A DNA stretch of 64,000 nt. It comes from Bacteroidales bacterium (lineage in GTDB: Bacteria > Bacteroidota > Bacteroidia > Bacteroidales > UBA7960). The notes below the pieces were generated by a model. It had not been told where the DNA came from. It made no database searches and saw nothing but the letters and a program-made list of their open reading frames with translations. This document shows positions 26,092-41,551 of the stretch, one piece after another (the first letter of the stretch is position 1; each line of letters starts with the position of its first letter). The stretch is from the NCBI GenBank assembly GCA_007118495.1, contig SKRM01000026.1, positions 1-64,000 of the forward strand, written 5' to 3'. Both the position numbers and the translations under genes were made by a program.

Positions 26092-27276
26092 TCAGATGTA
26101 GCGAAGACTGACTTCTTTTAGAAGTTTGTTTTCAAGTACACGGGCTATCCTTTTGATAACGGTGCGGCGTATTTCAAGTTCAACCGGAAGGTTAGGGTCT
26201 TGATGGGCCACGTTAATGGCTGTCCCAACCAAAAAATTGATTTCATCACTCTCAATAAACTGTTTGATGATCAGGTCAGCAGGGCCTTTCCCCAGTTCTG
26301 ACCTGGGGCCATATTTATCAAGCAGTTCGGCCGTTTTGCTTAAGGTAAGTATTCCTTCTGTAACCAGATCAATCCCCTCCATATATGACAGGGGTGGCAA
26401 GTCAGGATCTTCAAATTCTAATGTATCGGTTATTTTAATTCCCAGTTCTCTTGCAACTATGTCTGCCGTGGTTCCCCCGCAAAGAATTTTCCTGCCATTA
26501 AAACCTTTCACAATTCCTGCCAGTTCTTTGTCTTTTTCTTTGTCAAAAGGAGGACCGGAGCTTAATAAAAGTCTTCTTGGTTCTCTGAAGTAAACCACAG
26601 CAACACTGGTATCGTCTTTTGCCTGGTAACCATCATTGGCGTGGGCTTTATTCACCAGATGGGCCGACATGCGTGAAGCGGAGATATCAGGTTGATCCCT
26701 GACTACTGCAGCAAGGGTTTCCAATACGTTTTCCATGCCCCAACCCAACAGATATTTTCCCTTGCCAAGCCCCGACTGGGTGATTCCGTCGGTCATCAGC
26801 ACAATCCGGTCTTCTTTTTGGGCCATAAAGGTACAGGCATGAATTTCTTTGTGGCCTCCTTCGGCGGCTTCCATGGTAATGGTGTGCCAGTCAGGATTAA
26901 GTTGATCATGACTTCGCATGATAACCGGCTCAGGATTGTCATAGTTGATAATGGTGGTTTGCCCGTCTTTTTCTACATCAACAACGGTAAAGGTGGCGTA
27001 GCTTATTTTTCGTTCACTGCATACAGGCAGTGTGTTCATAATAATCTCTGCGATTTTGTGTGCATCGCGGTGTTCTTTGGTAAAATTCAGCGCCATGGTG
27101 GCGGTTAGTGTGGCCAGCAAGTTGGCCTTTACCCCATGTCCCATCCCGTCTGAAAGCACCACAACAGTCCGGCTCTCTTCCTTTACCTTTTCTGAAAGGA
27201 ACATATCTCCGCAAATCCTTTCACCCATATGGTTGCGCTGTGATGAGCCTACTTCAATATAGAATGCTTCATTCAT
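26092..27276 (-). CDS. SpoIIE/PP2C-type serine phosphatase with C-terminal extension, hydrogenase-locus associated
   Basis: VVVLSDGMGHGVKANLLATLTA; IVLMTDGITQSG; AKDDTSVAVVYF; ~160 aa extension. Confidence 0.88.
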   Translation of the reverse strand: MNEAFYIEVGSSQRNHMGERICGDMFLSEKVKEESRTVVVLSDGMGHGVKANLLATLTATMALNFTKEHRDAHKIAEIIMNTLPVCSERKISYATFTVVDVEKDGQTTIINYDNPEPVIMRSHDQLNPDWHTITMEAAEGGHKEIHACTFMAQKEDRIVLMTDGITQSGLGKGKYLLGWGMENVLETLAAVVRDQPDISASRMSAHLVNKAHANDGYQAKDDTSVAVVYFREPRRLLLSSGPPFDKEKDKELAGIVKGFNGRKILCGGTTADIVARELGIKITDTLEFEDPDLPPLSYMEGIDLVTEGILTLSKTAELLDKYGPRSELGKGPADLIIKQFIESDEINFLVGTAINVAHQDPNLPVELEIRRTVIKRIARVLENKLLKEVSLRYI

Positions 27277-27314: not shown

Positions 27315-29165
27315 TTACTTGCTTGTCTTTTTATAGGTTTCGATAATAGAATTGAGCATTTTTTCAGTGGTGCTGGCACCTTCACCAAGTGAAAAGGCTA
27401 TCTTTTGTACCATTTTGAGGTTTTCATCAATGACCTCACTTACACGGTTTATGATTTCTTCTTGTCTTACTTCAGCCACATACATATCACGGATAACCCC
27501 ACCGGCAATTTTGTTGGGTTTAAGTGAATAAATACTCACATTCAGTAAGCGGTCATTGTGCTGCACATCTTTTCCGATGATGTTTTCATCATTTTCAAGC
27601 ACATAAGAAAACAGATGGGATATGTTATAGGGCAGCAGTGTCTTCAGATCAGCTCCGGCCAGACCGGGTATGACCTCATTGATCATTTCGGCATCTTCGC
27701 CCAACACCTTTATAAAGCTTTGGTTTGATTCAATAATCTTGAGCTTTTCGTCAACAATAACAGCGGCCGATGGCAGGTTTTGCAGCAGGGCTGAAGTTGT
27801 TTCTGACCTTTGGCTTATTTTCTGGTTCTCATCTCTGAGTATTTTTTCCTTGTCAAGTAACTCTTCCTGGTTGGCCTTGAGTTTTTCGTTATTGGTTTTA
27901 AGGGTCCGGATGTAGTCTTGTTTACTCTTGAGCGAATAATTCAGGCACATTTCTGGCTTGCTGAGACCCTGGCTTATTGAAATGGCAAAATCACGGCAAC
28001 TTCTGTGTCCGCATGCGGTGCATGAAGCGGTCTCATTAACGCTTTTGCCAAGGCTTTTGAGTATTTCTTCTATTCTGTCGTTCTCAGGTTCCGGAAGGCG
28101 TTGGTCGTCTTTGACAAAACTTCGCTTTAGTTCAAGGCTTGAATATGTTTCCATTTCACTTTCCCACAGGTCTTTGTCAAAATCTTTGAGTCTTTTGTGG
28201 GCATAGTCAACCACCATGGTTCGGCGCAGGTATTTATTTGATTTGTCGGTAGTTCCCGGCCCCATGATACAACCCGAATGGTAAAAGACGTTGAAGTGCT
28301 TTTTGAGTAATTCAGTGTGTCTGCTGAATTCATCTACTATATCCAGAAAATTGATTTTGTCTTCAACAGTAATCACTTTGCCTTCAAGCAGTGAGCCATC
28401 TACACCGGCAGCTGTAAGAATGCCTTTGCTGATGGGGTATAGTGAGCCCAAAAATCCGATGGGGGGATCAAAGTCAGAATACTCAACTTTTGATTCCTTA
28501 ATGTTGAATCGGTTGAAAAGTGTCCTGAGTTCGCGGAAAGTGAGAACTGCATCAACCTTTGCATTGCCCTTAAACAATTTGGCGTCATGTTTTGCTGAAA
28601 GACATGGTCCGATGAAAACAACTTTAAGGTCGTTGCCAAAAGCTTTTCTGACTACCATGGCCGAAGCTGTCATGGGTGTGACAATGGGAGAGAGGTTTTC
28701 TGTAAGCTCGGGATAAAATTTTTCAACAAATGAAACCAGGCTGGGGCAGTTTGACATGAGGTAATACTTGCCCTTGAAATTCGACAAAAGTTCGTTGTAT
28801 TTACGGGCAACCAGGTCAACACCAAAAGAAACCTCATTCACATATTCGAAACCCAGTGTCCGGATCATTTCAACGAACTTCCGGTAATCGGTTATGTCCG
28901 GAAACTCTCCACTGATGGTGGGATCAACAATGGCTGCAACCTTTTTATCTGATTCAAGCAACCCAATGGTTGTATCAAGGTCGCTGAAGTGAGAAACTGC
29001 ATCTGATGAGCATACTGAAAGACAACTTCCACAGCCAACACACCTTTCATGATTGACAACCGGATAACCGTCTTTGCCATGGGCACTGATTGCCTTGACC
29101 GGGCATGATCTGATGCATGCATAAGACCTGTTGCAGCGTTTATGGTCAATGTCAATGATTCGCAT
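27315..29165 (-). CDS. HydS-like [FeFe]-hydrogenase-domain sensor with N-terminal ferredoxin domain, Cys-cluster domain and PAS domain
   Basis: CNRSYACIRSCP / CVGCGSCLSVC; SNCPSLVSF, GPCLSAKHDA, YHSGCIMGPG (degenerate H-cluster motifs); CTACGHRSCRDFA...C; PAS-like LLQNLPSAAVIVDEKLKIIESNQSF. Confidence 0.87.
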   Translation of the reverse strand: MRIIDIDHKRCNRSYACIRSCPVKAISAHGKDGYPVVNHERCVGCGSCLSVCSSDAVSHFSDLDTTIGLLESDKKVAAIVDPTISGEFPDITDYRKFVEMIRTLGFEYVNEVSFGVDLVARKYNELLSNFKGKYYLMSNCPSLVSFVEKFYPELTENLSPIVTPMTASAMVVRKAFGNDLKVVFIGPCLSAKHDAKLFKGNAKVDAVLTFRELRTLFNRFNIKESKVEYSDFDPPIGFLGSLYPISKGILTAAGVDGSLLEGKVITVEDKINFLDIVDEFSRHTELLKKHFNVFYHSGCIMGPGTTDKSNKYLRRTMVVDYAHKRLKDFDKDLWESEMETYSSLELKRSFVKDDQRLPEPENDRIEEILKSLGKSVNETASCTACGHRSCRDFAISISQGLSKPEMCLNYSLKSKQDYIRTLKTNNEKLKANQEELLDKEKILRDENQKISQRSETTSALLQNLPSAAVIVDEKLKIIESNQSFIKVLGEDAEMINEVIPGLAGADLKTLLPYNISHLFSYVLENDENIIGKDVQHNDRLLNVSIYSLKPNKIAGGVIRDMYVAEVRQEEIINRVSEVIDENLKMVQKIAFSLGEGASTTEKMLNSIIETYKKTSK

Positions 29166-29193: not shown

Positions 29194-29469
29194 CTATACC
29201 AGGTAGCTTTCGAGAATGTCGATGATGTCGGCTGAAGAAACCCTGGTGTGTGTATTTCCGTTGATCATCAACACAGGGCCGTTTTCACACGCTCCAAAAC
29301 AGTGAGACCCCCTAAAGGTGACAGCATCATACAACCCGTGGCTTTTAAGGTACTGCTGTATTACACCCAGGAGTTGTTTGTTACCCCTCGAAAAACAACT
29401 GCTGCCCATGCAGATAACAATCTCTCTGATTCTCGCCTGGTTCATGTCCTGGTTTAGGTTTGATGTCAA
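29194..29469 (-). CDS. (2Fe-2S) thioredoxin-like ferredoxin (NuoE-type fold)
   Basis: VICMGSSCFSRGNKQLL...FRGSHCFGACENGPVLMING. Confidence 0.9.
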   Translation of the reverse strand: MTSNLNQDMNQARIREIVICMGSSCFSRGNKQLLGVIQQYLKSHGLYDAVTFRGSHCFGACENGPVLMINGNTHTRVSSADIIDILESYLV

Positions 29470-29704: not shown

Positions 29705-30217
29705 TTGCCTTATATTGTGAAACAAATAGCAACACCACCTTATATGGAAAGTGATTTTCAACAAGTGTTCGAGCAATTTCCCAACAAGCGGAGAGAAGAT
29801 TTAATTCCCTTGCTCCAGCATATTCAGGATATTCACGGCTTTCTGTCTGAAGAAATTATAAAAAAAGTGGGCACCTACCTCGACATAAGTGTGAACAAAA
29901 TTTATGGGGTAGCTACCTTTTATGATAACTTCCGCTTTGGACCGGTTGGAAAGTACCATATCAGACTTTGTCACGGTACGGCCTGTCATGTATCAGGTGC
30001 AGGAACTCTGTTAAAGGAGTTGGAAAAGATTCTCCGTATCAAAGATGGAGAAACAGATAAACAAGGTTTATTCAGCCTTGAAGTTGTCAGCTGCATCGGA
30101 GCCTGCGGACTGGCTCCTTTGCTTGAGATAAATGAGCAATATTATACAAACATTACCCTGGAATCATTGAAAGAGCTTCTGGTATCGTTCAGGGAAAAAG
30201 AAAACCTATTGCCATGA
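29705..30217 (+). CDS. hydC: NADH-dependent [FeFe] hydrogenase subunit HydC (NuoE-like, 2Fe-2S)
   Basis: FEQFPNKRREDLIPLLQHIQDIHGFLSEE; LCHGTACHVSGA; SCIGACGLAPL; TTG start in track, ATG at 29744 plausible. Confidence 0.92.
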   Translation: MPYIVKQIATPPYMESDFQQVFEQFPNKRREDLIPLLQHIQDIHGFLSEEIIKKVGTYLDISVNKIYGVATFYDNFRFGPVGKYHIRLCHGTACHVSGAGTLLKELEKILRIKDGETDKQGLFSLEVVSCIGACGLAPLLEINEQYYTNITLESLKELLVSFREKENLLP

Positions 30218-32163
30218 GTTCAGAATCAACCCAAGATGTGAGAAATTTTCTGGTTGACCAGATTCTTCTTGATCCGGGCCGGGATGCAGCGGTAGCCCTG
30301 AAAAAACAACTGTCGTATATTTCAGGCGATCGGGTTCATAAACCAATGATCTATGTTGGTATGGCCACCTGTGGCCGCATTGCCGGTGCAGAAAAGACTT
30401 TCAAGGCAATAAAGGCCTATTTGTCTGACCACCAAATTGATGCCGATTTGGTTGAAGGTGGTTGCAATGGCTTCTGTCAGGCCGAACCCATTGTTGATAT
30501 TCAGCTTCCGGGAAAAGCACGGCTTTCTTTTTCGCACATTACCGATGACCTTGTTCAACCTCTGCTTGATGATGTACTAAATAACATCATACCTGATATG
30601 CCGGCTCTTGGTCAGTACCGAAGTCAACTTCTGCAGCAATGGGAGCAGATGCCATTTATTGATGAGCACCCCTATTTTAAACACCAGCACAAAGTATTGC
30701 TTGAATTATGTGGCGTTATTGACCCGGTTTCGGTATCTGCCTACATTGCAAAGGGCGGATACTGGGCATTTACCGACACTATCTCCAGGTATACACCGGC
30801 CAGGGTATGCGATATCATTGAAAACAGTGGCCTCGCCGGAAGGGGTGGGGGCGGCTATTCAACCGGAAAAAAATGGCGGCTTGCCCTGCAGACTACCAGC
30901 GATCAAAAATATTTTGTTTGTAACGCCGTTGAGAGTGATCCCGGCAGTTACATGAACCGGGCCATTATTGAAAGCAACCCCCACAGGCTGATTGAAGCGC
31001 TATTGATCGCTACCTATGCCATTGGTGCCACCAAGGCGTTTATATTTATTCGAAAAGAGTTTAAACTGGCCATTGAAAGGCTTGAGGCTGCACTTGAACA
31101 GGCAAGGGCCTACGGCATAACTGGTCATCACATACTTGACTCAGGTGTCAATATTGAAGTGGTTGTTAAAAAAGGAGCCAGGGCATTTGTTTGTGGCGAA
31201 GAAACGGCCCTGAACAGCAGTATTGAAGGGAAAAGGGCCATGCCATCATCCAAACCTCCCTATCCATCTGAATCAGGTTTGTGGAGTAAGCCTACCATTG
31301 TAAACAATGTGGAGACCCTCTTTAACGTACCGCTGATAATGCGAAACGGTGCTGAGTGGTTTCAATCATCGGGTACAGATATAAGCAAGGGCACCAAACT
31401 GTTTACCCTGTCGGGCTCTGTAAAGCGCTATGGAACCGTTGAGGTACCCATGGGTACAACTTTCGGAGACATTTTAGACAAGGTGGGGGGTGGTATGTCG
31501 TCAGACAAAGAATTCAAGGCCATCGTACTTGGGATAAACAGCGGTAGCTACATTACCAAGGATATCCTTGATACCCAGGTTGATTTTGATGCCTTGAAAA
31601 ATGTGGGCGCAGCTCTTGGTAGCGGAGCCTTTGTAGTGCTTGACCAGGGGGTTTGCATGGTCGACCTGGCCAGGTTCTTTACCGCGTTTTTTAAGAAGGA
31701 AAGTTGTGGTAAGTGTATCCCATGCAGAGAAGGAACCGCAAGAATGCTTGAAGTGATGGAAAACGCCACCAGCAGGCCTTCTGAAAACCATTCATTTCAG
31801 ACCCTTGAACGTTTCAAGGGAGTTATGCAGTTGAAAGGGCTTGCAGCCGTTATCAAGGATACTTCATTATGTTCGCTGGGCAAGTCATCACCCAATGCCA
31901 TTCTGAACACACTGAAGCATTTTAAGGAGGAGTTTGATACCCACTTGTTTGAAAGAAAATGTGCTGCAAATGTATGTACCGACCTGAGAATTTTTTCCAT
32001 TGACGTTGAGGCCTGCACCGGTTGCACGGCTTGCTTTAAGAAGTGCCCTGTTGATGCCATCATTGGTTCTCCGAGGTATCCCCACTTTATTGTTGAGGAA
32101 AAATGCATAGGTTGCGGAACCTGTTATGATGTTTGTAAATTCAATGCTGTTCTCATAAAATAG
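30214..32163 (+). CDS. hydB: NADH-dependent [FeFe] hydrogenase subunit HydB (NuoF-like, FMN, Fe-S)
   Basis: GLAGRGGGGYSTGKKWRLA; CNAVESDPGSYMNR; ESCGKCIPCREGTARMLE; C-terminal 2x[4Fe-4S]. Confidence 0.95.
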   Translation: MSSESTQDVRNFLVDQILLDPGRDAAVALKKQLSYISGDRVHKPMIYVGMATCGRIAGAEKTFKAIKAYLSDHQIDADLVEGGCNGFCQAEPIVDIQLPGKARLSFSHITDDLVQPLLDDVLNNIIPDMPALGQYRSQLLQQWEQMPFIDEHPYFKHQHKVLLELCGVIDPVSVSAYIAKGGYWAFTDTISRYTPARVCDIIENSGLAGRGGGGYSTGKKWRLALQTTSDQKYFVCNAVESDPGSYMNRAIIESNPHRLIEALLIATYAIGATKAFIFIRKEFKLAIERLEAALEQARAYGITGHHILDSGVNIEVVVKKGARAFVCGEETALNSSIEGKRAMPSSKPPYPSESGLWSKPTIVNNVETLFNVPLIMRNGAEWFQSSGTDISKGTKLFTLSGSVKRYGTVEVPMGTTFGDILDKVGGGMSSDKEFKAIVLGINSGSYITKDILDTQVDFDALKNVGAALGSGAFVVLDQGVCMVDLARFFTAFFKKESCGKCIPCREGTARMLEVMENATSRPSENHSFQTLERFKGVMQLKGLAAVIKDTSLCSLGKSSPNAILNTLKHFKEEFDTHLFERKCAANVCTDLRIFSIDVEACTGCTACFKKCPVDAIIGSPRYPHFIVEEKCIGCGTCYDVCKFNAVLIK

Positions 32164-32180
32164 CTTAGTGTGATAAGCCT

Positions 32181-33908
32181 ATGGAAATTCAGATAGATGT
32201 AAATGCGAAGCAAATCAGTGCCGTTGAAGGGGAAACCCTGCTGACGGTTTTGCGAAAGCATGGGTTTAAGATTCCCACCATGTGCCATATGAACAGGTTT
32301 TCACCCACGGGCGCCTGCAGACTTTGTGTGGTTGAGGTGGAAGGTAAAAGAGACCTGATTACCTCGTGCTCATACCCGGTTGAACAGGGAATGAAAGTGC
32401 GGACCAACTCCCAGCGGGTTATGCGTGCAAGAAAATCTTTGGTTGAGTTATTGCTTTCGAACCATCCTGATGATTGTCTGTACTGTGTAAGAAATGGTCA
32501 TTGCGAGCTTCAGTGGCTTGCTGAAGAAATGAATGTCAAAGAGCGAAAGTATTTTGGCGAAAAGAATGCAACATATCCCGACTATTCAAGTACCAGTGTG
32601 GCAAGAGATCCTGCCAAATGTGTTTTATGCAGTCGCTGTGTGCGTATCTGTGAAGAAGTTCAGCTGGTTACTGCCATTGATTTTATATCAAGAGGAAATC
32701 AAACAAAGGTAAATAGTGCTTTTAACCAGGGCCTGAATGTGTCGAGTTGTATCCATTGCGGCCAATGTATTCAGGTGTGCCCTACGGCAGCCCTTACAGA
32801 CATCAGCCATGTAGAAAAGGTGCAGGCGGCGCTGGGGAATCCCAGGCAAAAAGTTGTTTTTCTGATCAATCCCGGAGCATCTGCTTCAATGGCAGTTGAA
32901 CTCAAATGGAAACCCGGTGAAAACCTGGGTGGACGCCTGGCGGCTGCGCTGAGAAGCTGCGGCGCTTTCAGGGTATTTGACATGGGTTATGCCACTGATC
33001 TTCACATTGTAGAAGAAGCCAGAATGCTGGCGACCCATATTCGTGCAGGTAAACCTGGTCCGATGCTTTCAAGTTGCTGTCCGGCCTGGGTCAGGTATGT
33101 AGAAGAGTTCAGGTCAGACCTATTGGATAATCTGGCGCCGGTTAAATCATCGCAACAGTTTTTGGGAACCCTTGTAAAAACCGTCTATGCCCATGAAAAT
33201 AAACTTGATGCAGATACAATTTTTACAGTGGGAGTTACGCCTTGTGTTGCCAACAAGTATGAGGCCTCAAGAGAAGAAAACACACACAGGGGTATCTCTG
33301 AGGTCGATGCTGTGTTGACTGTCAGGGAGCTTTTCCATCTTTTGCGTGCATACGGTTTAGAAATGAAACAAATAGATGAAGAGCTGATGGATGAACCATT
33401 TGCAACATCATCTGCATTTGCATATAAGGTAAATTATACGGGTGGCAAGGCAGAAGCTGTAGCCCGTGAACTATTCAGGATATGGGCTGACAGCGACAAA
33501 GAAACCTTTAAATTCAACCTGCCAAAAAACCAGGCCATAAAAAGAGAAACCAGGGTAAAGATCGGAGAAAGGGAGTTTGGATTTGCATGGGTCAGCAGCA
33601 TAGAAGAAGCAGATTCTTATTTGCGCGAAATTGCTGAAGAAGGCCGTGATGACATACACTACATTGAAGTTATGGCTTGTTTGGGAGGATGTGCAGGTGG
33701 CGGTGGACAGCCCATTAGCCGGGGATTCGAGAAACCTCTGGCACGAAAGCGCATATGCCAGGATGTGGAAAAGGGTCATTCAGCCAAATCGGCCTGGGAA
33801 CATGCTGACATCAGGGCTTATTACAATAAAAATAAAACCGGCCGGCCAGCTGGCCAGGCTGATGAGTGGCTTGAAGCAAGGTTTAGGGAAAGAACAGACC
33901 TGAAGTAG
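32181..33908 (+). CDS. hydA: [FeFe] hydrogenase catalytic subunit HydA (group A, trimeric bifurcating type)
   Basis: N-terminal 2Fe-2S and 4Fe-4S domains; H-cluster motifs SSCCPAWVRY, TPCVANKYEA, EVMACLGGCAGGGGQP. Confidence 0.96.
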   Translation: MEIQIDVNAKQISAVEGETLLTVLRKHGFKIPTMCHMNRFSPTGACRLCVVEVEGKRDLITSCSYPVEQGMKVRTNSQRVMRARKSLVELLLSNHPDDCLYCVRNGHCELQWLAEEMNVKERKYFGEKNATYPDYSSTSVARDPAKCVLCSRCVRICEEVQLVTAIDFISRGNQTKVNSAFNQGLNVSSCIHCGQCIQVCPTAALTDISHVEKVQAALGNPRQKVVFLINPGASASMAVELKWKPGENLGGRLAAALRSCGAFRVFDMGYATDLHIVEEARMLATHIRAGKPGPMLSSCCPAWVRYVEEFRSDLLDNLAPVKSSQQFLGTLVKTVYAHENKLDADTIFTVGVTPCVANKYEASREENTHRGISEVDAVLTVRELFHLLRAYGLEMKQIDEELMDEPFATSSAFAYKVNYTGGKAEAVARELFRIWADSDKETFKFNLPKNQAIKRETRVKIGEREFGFAWVSSIEEADSYLREIAEEGRDDIHYIEVMACLGGCAGGGGQPISRGFEKPLARKRICQDVEKGHSAKSAWEHADIRAYYNKNKTGRPAGQADEWLEARFRERTDLK

Positions 33909-33927: not shown

Positions 33928-36006
33928 TTGAGCCATAAAATAAATTGTTTAATGCAGAAGAAAACGGAATTTATTTATACAGTCAAAGACCGGTGCAGGG
34001 TTTGTTACACCTGCGTAAGGGAGTGTCCTGCCAAAGCCATCAAGATAATGAATGGCCAGGCAGAGATCATCCCGAACCGCTGCATTGCCTGCGGAAACTG
34101 TATCCGTGTCTGCAGTAGGGATGCCAAAATGTTTGCCTTTTCAATAGATAAGGTTAAGAAACTATTCAAGGACGAACAAAAGGTAGCTGCTATTGTAGCT
34201 CCAAGTATTGCCGGCGAATTTACTGATATTGCTGATTATCACAATTTTGTGGGTATGATCAAGGCCCTTGGGTTTGATTATGTCAATGAGGTTGCATTTG
34301 GTGCTGAACTCATCGCCAGCAAATACAAAGAACTGCTTGAATCAAAACCTGACAGGCCGCTGATCTCAACCAGTTGTCCTGCCATAGTCAGTTATGTTGA
34401 AAAGCACCATCCCCAAATTATAGATTCGCTTGTTCCCGTTGTTTCACCAATGATAGCAACGGCCAAGGTGTTGAGAAAAATGCATGGTGATGATCTTCGT
34501 ATTGTTTTTATCGGTCCGTGCATTGCCAAAAAGGTAGAAGCTGCCGAAGAACAGTTCAGTGGTTTGATTGATGAGGTCATATCTTTTGTAGAGCTTCGCA
34601 GAATGTTCAAAGAAAAGGGCCTGAATGAGACCAATGTTGAACCCTGTGAGTTTGACCCCCCGATTGCGGGTAAAGGTTCTATATTCCCCATCAGCGGAGG
34701 CATGCTGCAAACTGTTGACCTTGAAGAGGATTTCATAAAGGGAGATATTGTTGTTGCCGAGGGCCGTCATGATATTATTGAGGTGCTGAGAGAATTTGAG
34801 GAAGGACACCTTGAGGCCAAAATGTTTGACCTGCTGTGTTGCAACGGATGTATCAACGGTCCGGGTATGAGCAGCAAACACCAGTTTTTTCATAAGCGGA
34901 AGAATATTTCAAATTTTGCCAAGAGAAAGTATGACAGTCTGGACAGGGATCAATGGCAAAAAGACCTTGAAAACTACCTGGGTCTCGAGTATGGTCGCAT
35001 TTTTCATGCCGATGATCAGAGGTTTCCCACCTTACCAAGAGATGAAGAGATCAGAGAAGTACTTAAGGCCTTTGGCAAAAAGGAACCTGAAGATGAGCTT
35101 AATTGTGGTGCATGTGGATATGATACCTGCTATGAGCATGCTGTAGCCATACTTCAGGGTCTGGCTGAATCAGAAATGTGTCTGCCCTTTACCATTGACA
35201 AACTACATGAATATATTACCGAGCTTGATGTTTCAAACAAAAAGCTTGCATCTACCCAGGCAGCATTGAAGCAAAGTGAAAAACTGGCCTCGATGGGGCA
35301 GCTTGCTGCAGGTATTGCCCACGAAGTGAATAATCCGCTTGGGGTGGTGATTATGTACAGCCACATCCTTTTAGATGAGATGGATCCAACATCTCCATTA
35401 TACCGTGATCTGAAACTGATAGTTGAACAAGCCGACCGTTGCAAGAAAATCGTGGGAGGGTTGTTGAATTTTGCCCGCAAAAGCAAGGTGATCATAGGTG
35501 AGGTAAATGTTAAGAAAATCATCAACGATGGGCTTAAAACATTTGTTTTGCCTACAAATATTGATTTGCAGATAAGGGTAAATACACGTAACCAAACCCT
35601 CGAATGTGACCATGACCAGATGGTGCAGGTATTCTCCAATTTGTTTAAAAATGCCGTTGATGCCATGCCCGATGGTGGGGTACTGAAAATCCTTGTCGAT
35701 GATGCACGCGAAAAAAACTCCCTGTTGTTTCGTGTTGAAGATACTGGCACTGGCATAAACAAAGAAAATATCGAACGGATGTTCGAACCATTTTTTACCA
35801 CCAAAGAGTCAGGACATGGCACTGGTCTGGGGCTTCCCATCATTTACGGGATCATTAAAATGCACAGGGGAAATATCCGCGTTGAATCAAATGATGACCC
35901 CACAAAGGGCCAAACAGGTACCAGTTTTATTGTTACGGTACCCAGAAAATCTGAAACCAATAAAGATGATAATGACGTTATCTCCGATGATGAGTTCATT
36001 GGGTAA
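33928..36006 (+). CDS. HydS-like [FeFe]-hydrogenase-domain protein fused to a histidine kinase
   Basis: CRVCYTCVRECP/CIACGNCIRVC; STSCPAIVSY, GPCIAKKVEA, CCNGCINGPG; CGACGYDTC...C; HisKA IAHEVNNPLGVV and HATPase FEPFFTTKESGHGTGLGLPI; probable start 33952. Confidence 0.92.
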   Translation: MSHKINCLMQKKTEFIYTVKDRCRVCYTCVRECPAKAIKIMNGQAEIIPNRCIACGNCIRVCSRDAKMFAFSIDKVKKLFKDEQKVAAIVAPSIAGEFTDIADYHNFVGMIKALGFDYVNEVAFGAELIASKYKELLESKPDRPLISTSCPAIVSYVEKHHPQIIDSLVPVVSPMIATAKVLRKMHGDDLRIVFIGPCIAKKVEAAEEQFSGLIDEVISFVELRRMFKEKGLNETNVEPCEFDPPIAGKGSIFPISGGMLQTVDLEEDFIKGDIVVAEGRHDIIEVLREFEEGHLEAKMFDLLCCNGCINGPGMSSKHQFFHKRKNISNFAKRKYDSLDRDQWQKDLENYLGLEYGRIFHADDQRFPTLPRDEEIREVLKAFGKKEPEDELNCGACGYDTCYEHAVAILQGLAESEMCLPFTIDKLHEYITELDVSNKKLASTQAALKQSEKLASMGQLAAGIAHEVNNPLGVVIMYSHILLDEMDPTSPLYRDLKLIVEQADRCKKIVGGLLNFARKSKVIIGEVNVKKIINDGLKTFVLPTNIDLQIRVNTRNQTLECDHDQMVQVFSNLFKNAVDAMPDGGVLKILVDDAREKNSLLFRVEDTGTGINKENIERMFEPFFTTKESGHGTGLGLPIIYGIIKMHRGNIRVESNDDPTKGQTGTSFIVTVPRKSETNKDDNDVISDDEFIG

Positions 36007-40123: not shown

Positions 40124-41551
40124 ATGATCTACTACCCTGAGAAATATGCCATTGAAGATAAGAGGATGCAAGCTTTTATTGACCCTGACGAAATTTGGGG
40201 CTACCTGAACAGGGTTAAAGCTGATAAAAGCAGGGTAAGAGAAGTAATCAAATCTTCACTTGACAAGAAAAGGCTTTCATTGGAAGAAACCGCTGTATTG
40301 CTTAATACCACTGATCATGAGCTGATTGAAGAGATTAAAGAAGGTGCACGCACTTTGAAAGAAAAGGTCTATGGTGAGCGCATTGTTCTTTTCGCCCCCC
40401 TTTATGTTGGTGACTTGTGTACCAACAACTGCCAATATTGCGGATTCAGAAGCACCAACAAAGGAATCCAAAGGTTAACACTCAGCAGTAATGAATTAAT
40501 TGAAGAGACCACGGCTCTGATTGATCAGGGGCACAAACGCCTTATTCTTGTGTATGGAGAGCATCCAAAGTATTCGGCCGAATTCATTGCCGAGACAGTG
40601 CGGGTTGTATATGGTGTAAAGCATGGTAATGGAGAGATCAGGCGCGTTAACATCAATGCAGCACCATTCGATATTCCCGGATTCAGAATCATTAAAGATG
40701 CAGGGATCGGTACCTTTCAGATTTTTCAGGAAACATATCATGAGCCCACCTACAAAAAGGTGCACCTGGGTGGCTTAAAACGAAATTACGACTGGAGGCT
40801 TACTGCACTTGACCGTGCGCAAGAAGCCGGCATCGACGATGTGGGTATAGGAGCACTTTTCGGACTATATGACTGGCGGTTTGAAGTTATGGCACTGGTT
40901 CGGCATGTAAACCACTTTGAAGCCGTGTACAATGTGGGTCCCCACACAATTTCATTTCCCCGGATACAGAATGCGCTCTCACTTGATATATCGAAAGAAC
41001 ATCTTGTAAAGGATGATGAGTTTGTGAGACTGGTTTCAGTGCTGAGGCTCGCCGTTCCCTATACCGGGATGATTCTTACAGCCAGAGAGCCTGCCGAAAT
41101 CCGTGACCAGATACTCAGGTTTGGGGTATCTCAAATTGATGGTGGAACCAACCTTGAGCTTGGAGGATATTCAAAAGGCAAGCAAGAAGTGCAAGATCTG
41201 AGCAGGGAACAGTTTCAGATAAACGACAACAGATCGCTTTCAGATATCATGGACGAATTGATAAAAACAGGTTATATTCCTTCATTTTGTACTGCCTGCT
41301 ACCGTCTGGGACGAACAGGAGAGCATTTTATGGAATTTTCGGTACCGGGCTTTATTAAAAGGTATTGTTCGCCCAATGCACTCCTGACTTTGGCTGAATA
41401 CCTTGAAGATTACGGACGTGATGACACCAAAGAGGCTGGCTATAAACTTATTGATGAGAAGGTGAAGGAGTTGTCCAAACACCAGAAGGTTGACAAACTT
41501 AAAGAAAAGCTGGGAGAGGTTAAACAAGGGAAAAGAGATCTTTACTTCTAA
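40124..41551 (+). CDS. hydG: [FeFe] hydrogenase H-cluster radical SAM maturase HydG
   Basis: LFAPLYVGDLCTNNCQYCGFRSTNKGIQR (CxxxCxxC with HydG context); C-terminal FCTACYRLGRTGEHFMEF cluster motif. Confidence 0.95.
   Translation: MIYYPEKYAIEDKRMQAFIDPDEIWGYLNRVKADKSRVREVIKSSLDKKRLSLEETAVLLNTTDHELIEEIKEGARTLKEKVYGERIVLFAPLYVGDLCTNNCQYCGFRSTNKGIQRLTLSSNELIEETTALIDQGHKRLILVYGEHPKYSAEFIAETVRVVYGVKHGNGEIRRVNINAAPFDIPGFRIIKDAGIGTFQIFQETYHEPTYKKVHLGGLKRNYDWRLTALDRAQEAGIDDVGIGALFGLYDWRFEVMALVRHVNHFEAVYNVGPHTISFPRIQNALSLDISKEHLVKDDEFVRLVSVLRLAVPYTGMILTAREPAEIRDQILRFGVSQIDGGTNLELGGYSKGKQEVQDLSREQFQINDNRSLSDIMDELIKTGYIPSFCTACYRLGRTGEHFMEFSVPGFIKRYCSPNALLTLAEYLEDYGRDDTKEAGYKLIDEKVKELSKHQKVDKLKEKLGEVKQGKRDLYF

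Follow-up and report, generated by a model that had tools for sequence, protein, structure and literature searches.

Histidine at a predicted H-cluster ligand position in a phosphatase-linked HydS-type protein of Bacteroidales

How should a hydrogenase-like protein be read when it retains just three of the four cysteines expected at an H-cluster site? The question is raised by a gene in the window analyzed here, the whole 64,000-nucleotide stretch of contig SKRM01000026.1 from a Bacteroidales bacterium. The gene (27315-29165, minus strand) encodes a protein of 616 aa, P0001, just as the first-pass annotation had it. The motifs quoted there are present in the translation: SNCPS contains N139 and C140, GPCLSAKHDA contains C188, and VFYHSGCIMGPG contains Y295, H296 and C299. 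Those given for the catalytic HydA of the same locus (SSCCPAW, TPCVANKYE and MACLGGC) match as well.

The domain order of P0001 (27318-29165) was deduced from the translation, Pfam matches and the secondary structure of an AF2 model. Two [4Fe-4S] ferredoxin motifs (residues 1-60, 28986-29165) precede an H domain (about residues 74-310, 28236-28946; PF02906, E=2.4e-37), the model of which matches [FeFe]-hydrogenases in the PDB. Next comes a C-terminal FeS domain, CTACGHRSC..C (residues 382-407, 27945-28022; PF04060), whose cysteines C382, C385, C390 and C407 are conserved in 137-138 of 138 orthologues and whose Cx2Cx4Cx16C spacing is the one published for sensors of groups C and D (PMC8163306). 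Beyond a coiled coil lie a PAS-like domain (about residues 458-560) and a helical tail, RVSEVIDENLKMVQKIAFSLGEGAS..E, with many conserved positions; together these occupy 27330-27794. The PAS match in P0001 is weak and below the cut-off (E=0.0025), PAS_8 was matched in 12 of 33 family members (best 5.3e-6), and the strand and helix order of the AF2 model is PAS-like. In a Foldseek search with the P0001 model, the best matches were [FeFe]-hydrogenases (prob 1.00, whole-chain TM about 0.4); around L3 the model is weak (block mean pLDDT 52-65), and it contains no placed cofactor. For the H domain, dN/dS is about 0.025 across four usable pairs, most pairs being saturated, which points to purifying selection.

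By this predicted domain order, P0001 belongs with the HydS-type (group C) homologues of sensory [FeFe]-hydrogenases, and it is phosphatase-linked. The HydS-like assignment made earlier is borne out by the H domain, the Cx2Cx4Cx16C motif near the C-terminus and the absence of the proton-shuttle Cys (C299 in CpI). P0001 is also co-encoded with a SpoIIE-type Ser/Thr phosphatase, the defining feature of HydDB group C3, which is phosphatase-linked and of putative function; our C3 label is based on gene context and that description (PMC5037454). For group C proteins in general, a role in sensing H2 is unproven (PMC8924675), and a non-catalytic sensor role would fit the architecture. P0001 resembles both the HydDB C3 proteins and the Thermotoga maritima protein TmHydS (group C, M2f; PMC10055695): it has two N-terminal motifs of the [4Fe-4S] type, the first of them with one Cys replaced, an H domain, a Cx2Cx4Cx16C FeS domain and a putative PAS-like domain, is devoid of the shuttle Cys, and adjoins a group A hydrogenase; the phosphatase linked to group C3 has its counterpart in the SpoIIE gene. 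P0001 differs from them in having His for one H-cluster Cys, an L3 of the Cx2C type, Ser in the first ferredoxin motif and a weak PAS match. TamHydS of Thermoanaerobacter mathranii (group D, M2e; PMC8163306, PMC13104023), a low-activity putative sensor, shares the F-H-FeS core, but it lacks a PAS domain and has an active H-cluster bound, whereas P0001 appears to have a replaced ligand. The group C1 proteins of Hydrogenedentota (PMC11406978) are likewise group C sensors with H-cluster motifs off the signature. Those motifs were described as hardly recognizable and H2 sensing as uncertain; the authors did not find the motifs, whereas in P0001 one defined ligand seems to be replaced and three are kept.

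Which ligand, then, is missing? The search for orthologues covered 247 genomes belonging to the same order, GTDB contigs and 299 genomes drawn from the phylum. All named matches among the GTDB contigs were from Bacteroidales or other Bacteroidetes, the nearest being mostly sediment MAGs, and the 299 genomes of the phylum yielded no full-length orthologue outside the order. In the orthologue alignment, L1 (28746-28751) places N139 at the shuttle position (CpI C299), so the Asn reported there stands, and C140 at the ligand position of CpI C300. In L2, C188 (28602-28604) occupies the position of CpI C355 and is followed by K192. In L3, C299 (28269-28271) corresponds to the bridging cysteine, CpI C503, and Y295 and H296 lie at 28278-28283. 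A profile-profile alignment to HydA did not reach all the way through L3.

The first-pass annotation had Tyr in place of the ligand Cys, and on this point it must be corrected. Position 295 is Y in 116 and F in 18 of 138 distinct orthologues (134/138), whatever the ligand state, and merely adjoins the ligand position. At position 296, Cys stands in 77 of the same orthologues, Asn in 27, His in 18, Asp in 11, Lys in 2 and Arg in 1, and 2 have a gap. The typical L3 motif of the family is F-Y/F-C-E-G-C, so that most members have Cx2C in place of the Cx3C of catalytic enzymes. Judged by the alignment, the replaced H-cluster ligand is a Cys, to His296 in P0001. The His is no accident of sequencing or assembly, as 18 orthologues from separate assemblies carry it.

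The absence of one ligand Cys, as originally noted, holds. P0001 contains 14 Cys (residues 11, 17, 21, 42, 45, 48, 52, 140, 188, 299, 382, 385, 390 and 407): three and four in the ferredoxin motifs, three in the H domain and four in the FeS domain. All are accounted for, so no spare is available to refill the site. A nearby Cys filling the site had been proposed as grounds for abandoning the claim; no other Cys is present in the H domain of P0001, nor is a compensating one found in 15 of the 18 His rows. What P0001 offers in place of the four Cys of [4Fe-4S]H is thus C140, C188, C299 and His296, for which reason we refrain from describing P0001 as a functional hydrogenase. An altered cofactor, suggested at the outset, is a possibility that we uphold.

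Is the site still used? C140, C188 and C299 are Cys in 56/56 orthologues with His, Asn or Asp at 296, a count to be read with the tree in mind, as conservation among relatives is not independent row by row and the tree gives just four N/D/H origins. In this set, 39 of 237 H-domain columns are invariant (84% vary), and the chance of finding three given columns among them is about 0.0045. Two trees were computed, one of 236 rows and one of 107 rows under a mixture model. In both, Cys at 296 was lost about six times, four of these to N, D or H. His has a single origin in the tree, inside an Asn/Asp clade, and on the tree it is independently that sister lineages put Asn or Asp at this position. 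On the tree, the His/Asn/Asp lineages cover about 11.8 substitutions per site, and in none of them was C140, C188 or C299 lost; the five Lys/Arg/gap rows cover 2.7, and every one of them lacks one or more of these three Cys. From a Cys codon, it takes two base changes to reach Asn, Asp or His, and one to reach Ser, Tyr, Gly, Phe or Trp. None of these one-step replacements occurs at 296 among the 138 orthologues. That the three other Cys are conserved in His, Asn and Asp members speaks for continued cluster binding by P0001, and their retention over 11.8 substitutions per site, together with replacements that are not the cheap ones, suggests that the site is still used.

In the explanation we favor, which we consider to have an even chance of being correct, P0001 would hold an H-cluster-type site on three Cys and a non-Cys fourth ligand, most likely H296, and relay its state to the SpoIIE phosphatase. 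The [4Fe-4S] half of the site would be held by C140, C188, the bridging C299 and, most likely, H296, and the occupant would probably be an H-cluster with shifted redox properties. Besides the conservation and tree patterns above, we count in favor of this explanation the presence of HydE, HydF and HydG in the genome, the purifying selection on the H domain, the synteny with the phosphatase and the [2Fe-2S] protein, and the precedents from [NiFe]-hydrogenases and engineered ligands given below. Against it, Cx2C is itself non-canonical, which makes residue 296 no more than a putative ligand; the conserved Cys would also fit a plain [4Fe-4S] or [3Fe-4S] cluster without [2Fe]; five members without full ligands keep their operon partners; and the AF2 model is weak at L3.

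The second of these objections leads to an alternative that we regard as rather unlikely, albeit the strongest of the rivals. The cluster on the three Cys may be a plain [4Fe-4S] or a labile [3Fe-4S] one, its iron open or His-capped, and [2Fe] may be absent; P0001 would then sense redox state or a small molecule, and H2 would be left to the histidine-kinase paralogue. That paralogue, P0002, is encoded at the same locus and keeps every ligand, and the equivalent of C299 is a cluster ligand even without [2Fe]. The residue that might speak against a plain cluster, K192 (the position of CpI K358, near the [2Fe] site), is kept in 55/56 His/Asn/Asp rows, yet it is also retained in 4/5 eroded rows, and thus it is indecisive on the presence of [2Fe]. 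A hint of general redox retuning, which would suit a plain cluster, comes from the first ferredoxin motif.

There, Ser14 (29124-29126) occupies the second Cys position, giving CxxS for CxxC; the second motif is complete. This position is non-Cys in 55/137 orthologues versus 0/103 histidine-kinase paralogues, from which it appears that the cluster of the first motif may also be altered. We considered whether Ser14 is linked with the loss of Cys at 296: the raw counts are suggestive, but independent pairs on the tree are not supportive, and the link was rejected.

A further alternative is that residue 296 was never a cluster ligand. After the change from Cx3C to Cx2C, the fourth ligand could be water, the main chain or another residue, with the residues at 296 in the second sphere. 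The spacing of L3 does differ from that of solved [FeFe]-hydrogenases, and both HydA and 594-aa relatives have their L3 Cys at -4. However, Cys is the commonest residue at 296, and in 25 histidine-kinase paralogues, which have F, L, S or G at -4, Cys at the 296-equivalent is the sole L3 partner with the other ligands invariant. Moreover, a one-residue insertion in three members (L049, L050 and L062) restores Cx3C around the same Cys. We therefore regard a second-sphere role for 296 as improbable. The histidine-kinase paralogues mostly have CC at L3 positions -4 and -3, some having the -3 Cys alone, and in shorter PAS-bearing relatives Cys is at -4 alone. Given these patterns, it is plausible that the ligand Cys moved by one position via a double-Cys or loop-length intermediate.

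Some family members are eroded. Two H-cluster ligands are gone from L038, and most or even all from L057, L060, L061 and L072. The genes for the phosphatase and the [2Fe-2S] protein are nonetheless present in all five cases, and hydA lies nearby in L057 and L072. Retention of these partners suggests that the family can work without an H-cluster, that is, that the H-domain scaffold can outlive the cofactor, and this keeps the rival readings for P0001 alive. The extreme case is that the H domain of P0001 is itself a cluster-free relic that does no more than link the ferredoxin domain to the output domains as a scaffold, as the eroded members with intact flanking genes would suggest. This we consider very unlikely: P0001 does not show the eroded pattern, and the other three Cys are invariant in its own clade and in all His/Asn/Asp members.

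If the favored explanation is correct, the genes around P0001 suggest where a signal would go. Downstream, the SpoIIE-type PP2C phosphatase (26095-27276, minus strand; PF07228, E=7.5e-18) is the probable output partner; its D24, D43, D163, D221 and D222 are invariant in 121 sequences, and the gene lies downstream of the sensor in 106/118 loci. Its C-terminal region (about residues 240-394, 26095-26560) is highly conserved (GGTTA, PPLSYMEG, TEGILTL), and no Pfam match was found for it beyond the phosphatase domain. Upstream, as in 108/127 loci overall, is a small thioredoxin-like [2Fe-2S] protein of the NuoE C-terminal type (29197-29469, minus strand; PF01257), with C20, C25, C57 and C61 invariant in 113. 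Divergent from these genes is hydC-hydB-hydA (29705-33908, plus strand), which encodes a trimeric HydABC-type hydrogenase; the best match of HydA is the group A6 model NF040763, with a score below its cut-off, and a divergent HydA is found in 57/75 loci with enough sequence. P0002, another HydS-like protein, this one with a fused histidine kinase (33928-36006, plus strand; L3 CCNGC), follows, and after it come response regulators, a Rex-like regulator and the HydG maturase (40124-41551, plus strand; TIGR03955, E=1.2e-149). HydE and HydF are encoded elsewhere in the genome, on contig C14.

The redox or H2 state of the site would be relayed by way of the C-terminal FeS domain, the coiled coil and the PAS-like domain to the phosphatase, which would tune expression of the divergent hydABC operon via a putative target. 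Control of the phosphatase by the sensor, and of hydrogenase expression by way of this target, is the most likely arrangement, given the conserved trio of [2Fe-2S] protein, sensor and phosphatase, the invariant phosphatase aspartates and the divergent hydABC.

Variation at H-cluster motifs was also seen in other proteins of these genomes. In 14 related loci (e.g. L135, L142 and L154), the catalytic HydA carries Asp where the shuttle Cys would be (SSDCP, NSDCP); in CaHydA, Asp is the sole replacement at this position reported to retain high activity (PMC3485046). The genome has a further HydA, L001 (G000:C14:72386-73294), with TSCSPGW and thus Ser at the position of ligand C300 in CpI; the feature recurs in six more HydA, and Ser in the same motif is noted as common in BfuA of Hydrogenedentota (PMC11406978). 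Near this second hydrogenase is L006 (G000:C14:75704-76363), a 475 aa H-domain protein with ferredoxin motifs, ISTFCPAI and ELRACDQSCAGG; relatives of it occur in L059, L065 and L071.

Histidine at a ligand position has been engineered. A His variant of Chlamydomonas HydA1 is said to be at C417, the equivalent of CpI C499. Cys-to-His ligand variants of this enzyme are cited in PMC11376134 and PMC11966682; they resemble P0001 in having His for one [4Fe-4S]H ligand Cys and differ in being engineered, in a catalytic enzyme and in a Cx3C context, whereas P0001 is natural, a sensor and of the Cx2C type. In the former, a review, Cys-to-His at a [4Fe-4S]H ligand is reported to shift catalytic bias and raise overpotential (PMC11376134). 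In [NiFe]-hydrogenases, Asp, His and Asn occur for cluster Cys, and tested cases retained activity (PMC4070099). Our search, which covered few subscription journals, found no paper on a natural His, Asn or Asp at this H-cluster ligand with the other three kept. The engineered equivalent is already known, and the natural Cys/Asn/Asp/His series is apparently unreported.

His at the ligand position across a clade, with Asn or Asp in its sisters, suggests a natural metal-site variant of a kind so far made by mutagenesis only; in the literature that we found, [4Fe-4S]H ligands have been varied in no other way. We put forward tentatively, as possible but less probable than the favored explanation itself, that a natural His-ligated H-cluster is the sensor head of a phosphatase-linked protein, and that Bacteroidales have repeatedly swapped the ligand from Cys to Asn, Asp or His to tune its redox set point. 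The series bears on the mechanism of H2 sensing by group C [FeFe]-hydrogenases. With Cys, Asn, Asp, His and fully eroded sites in one conserved operon, it makes it possible to ask directly whether an H-cluster is needed by the sensor, whether the ligand sets the redox point and how H2 sensing becomes redox sensing.
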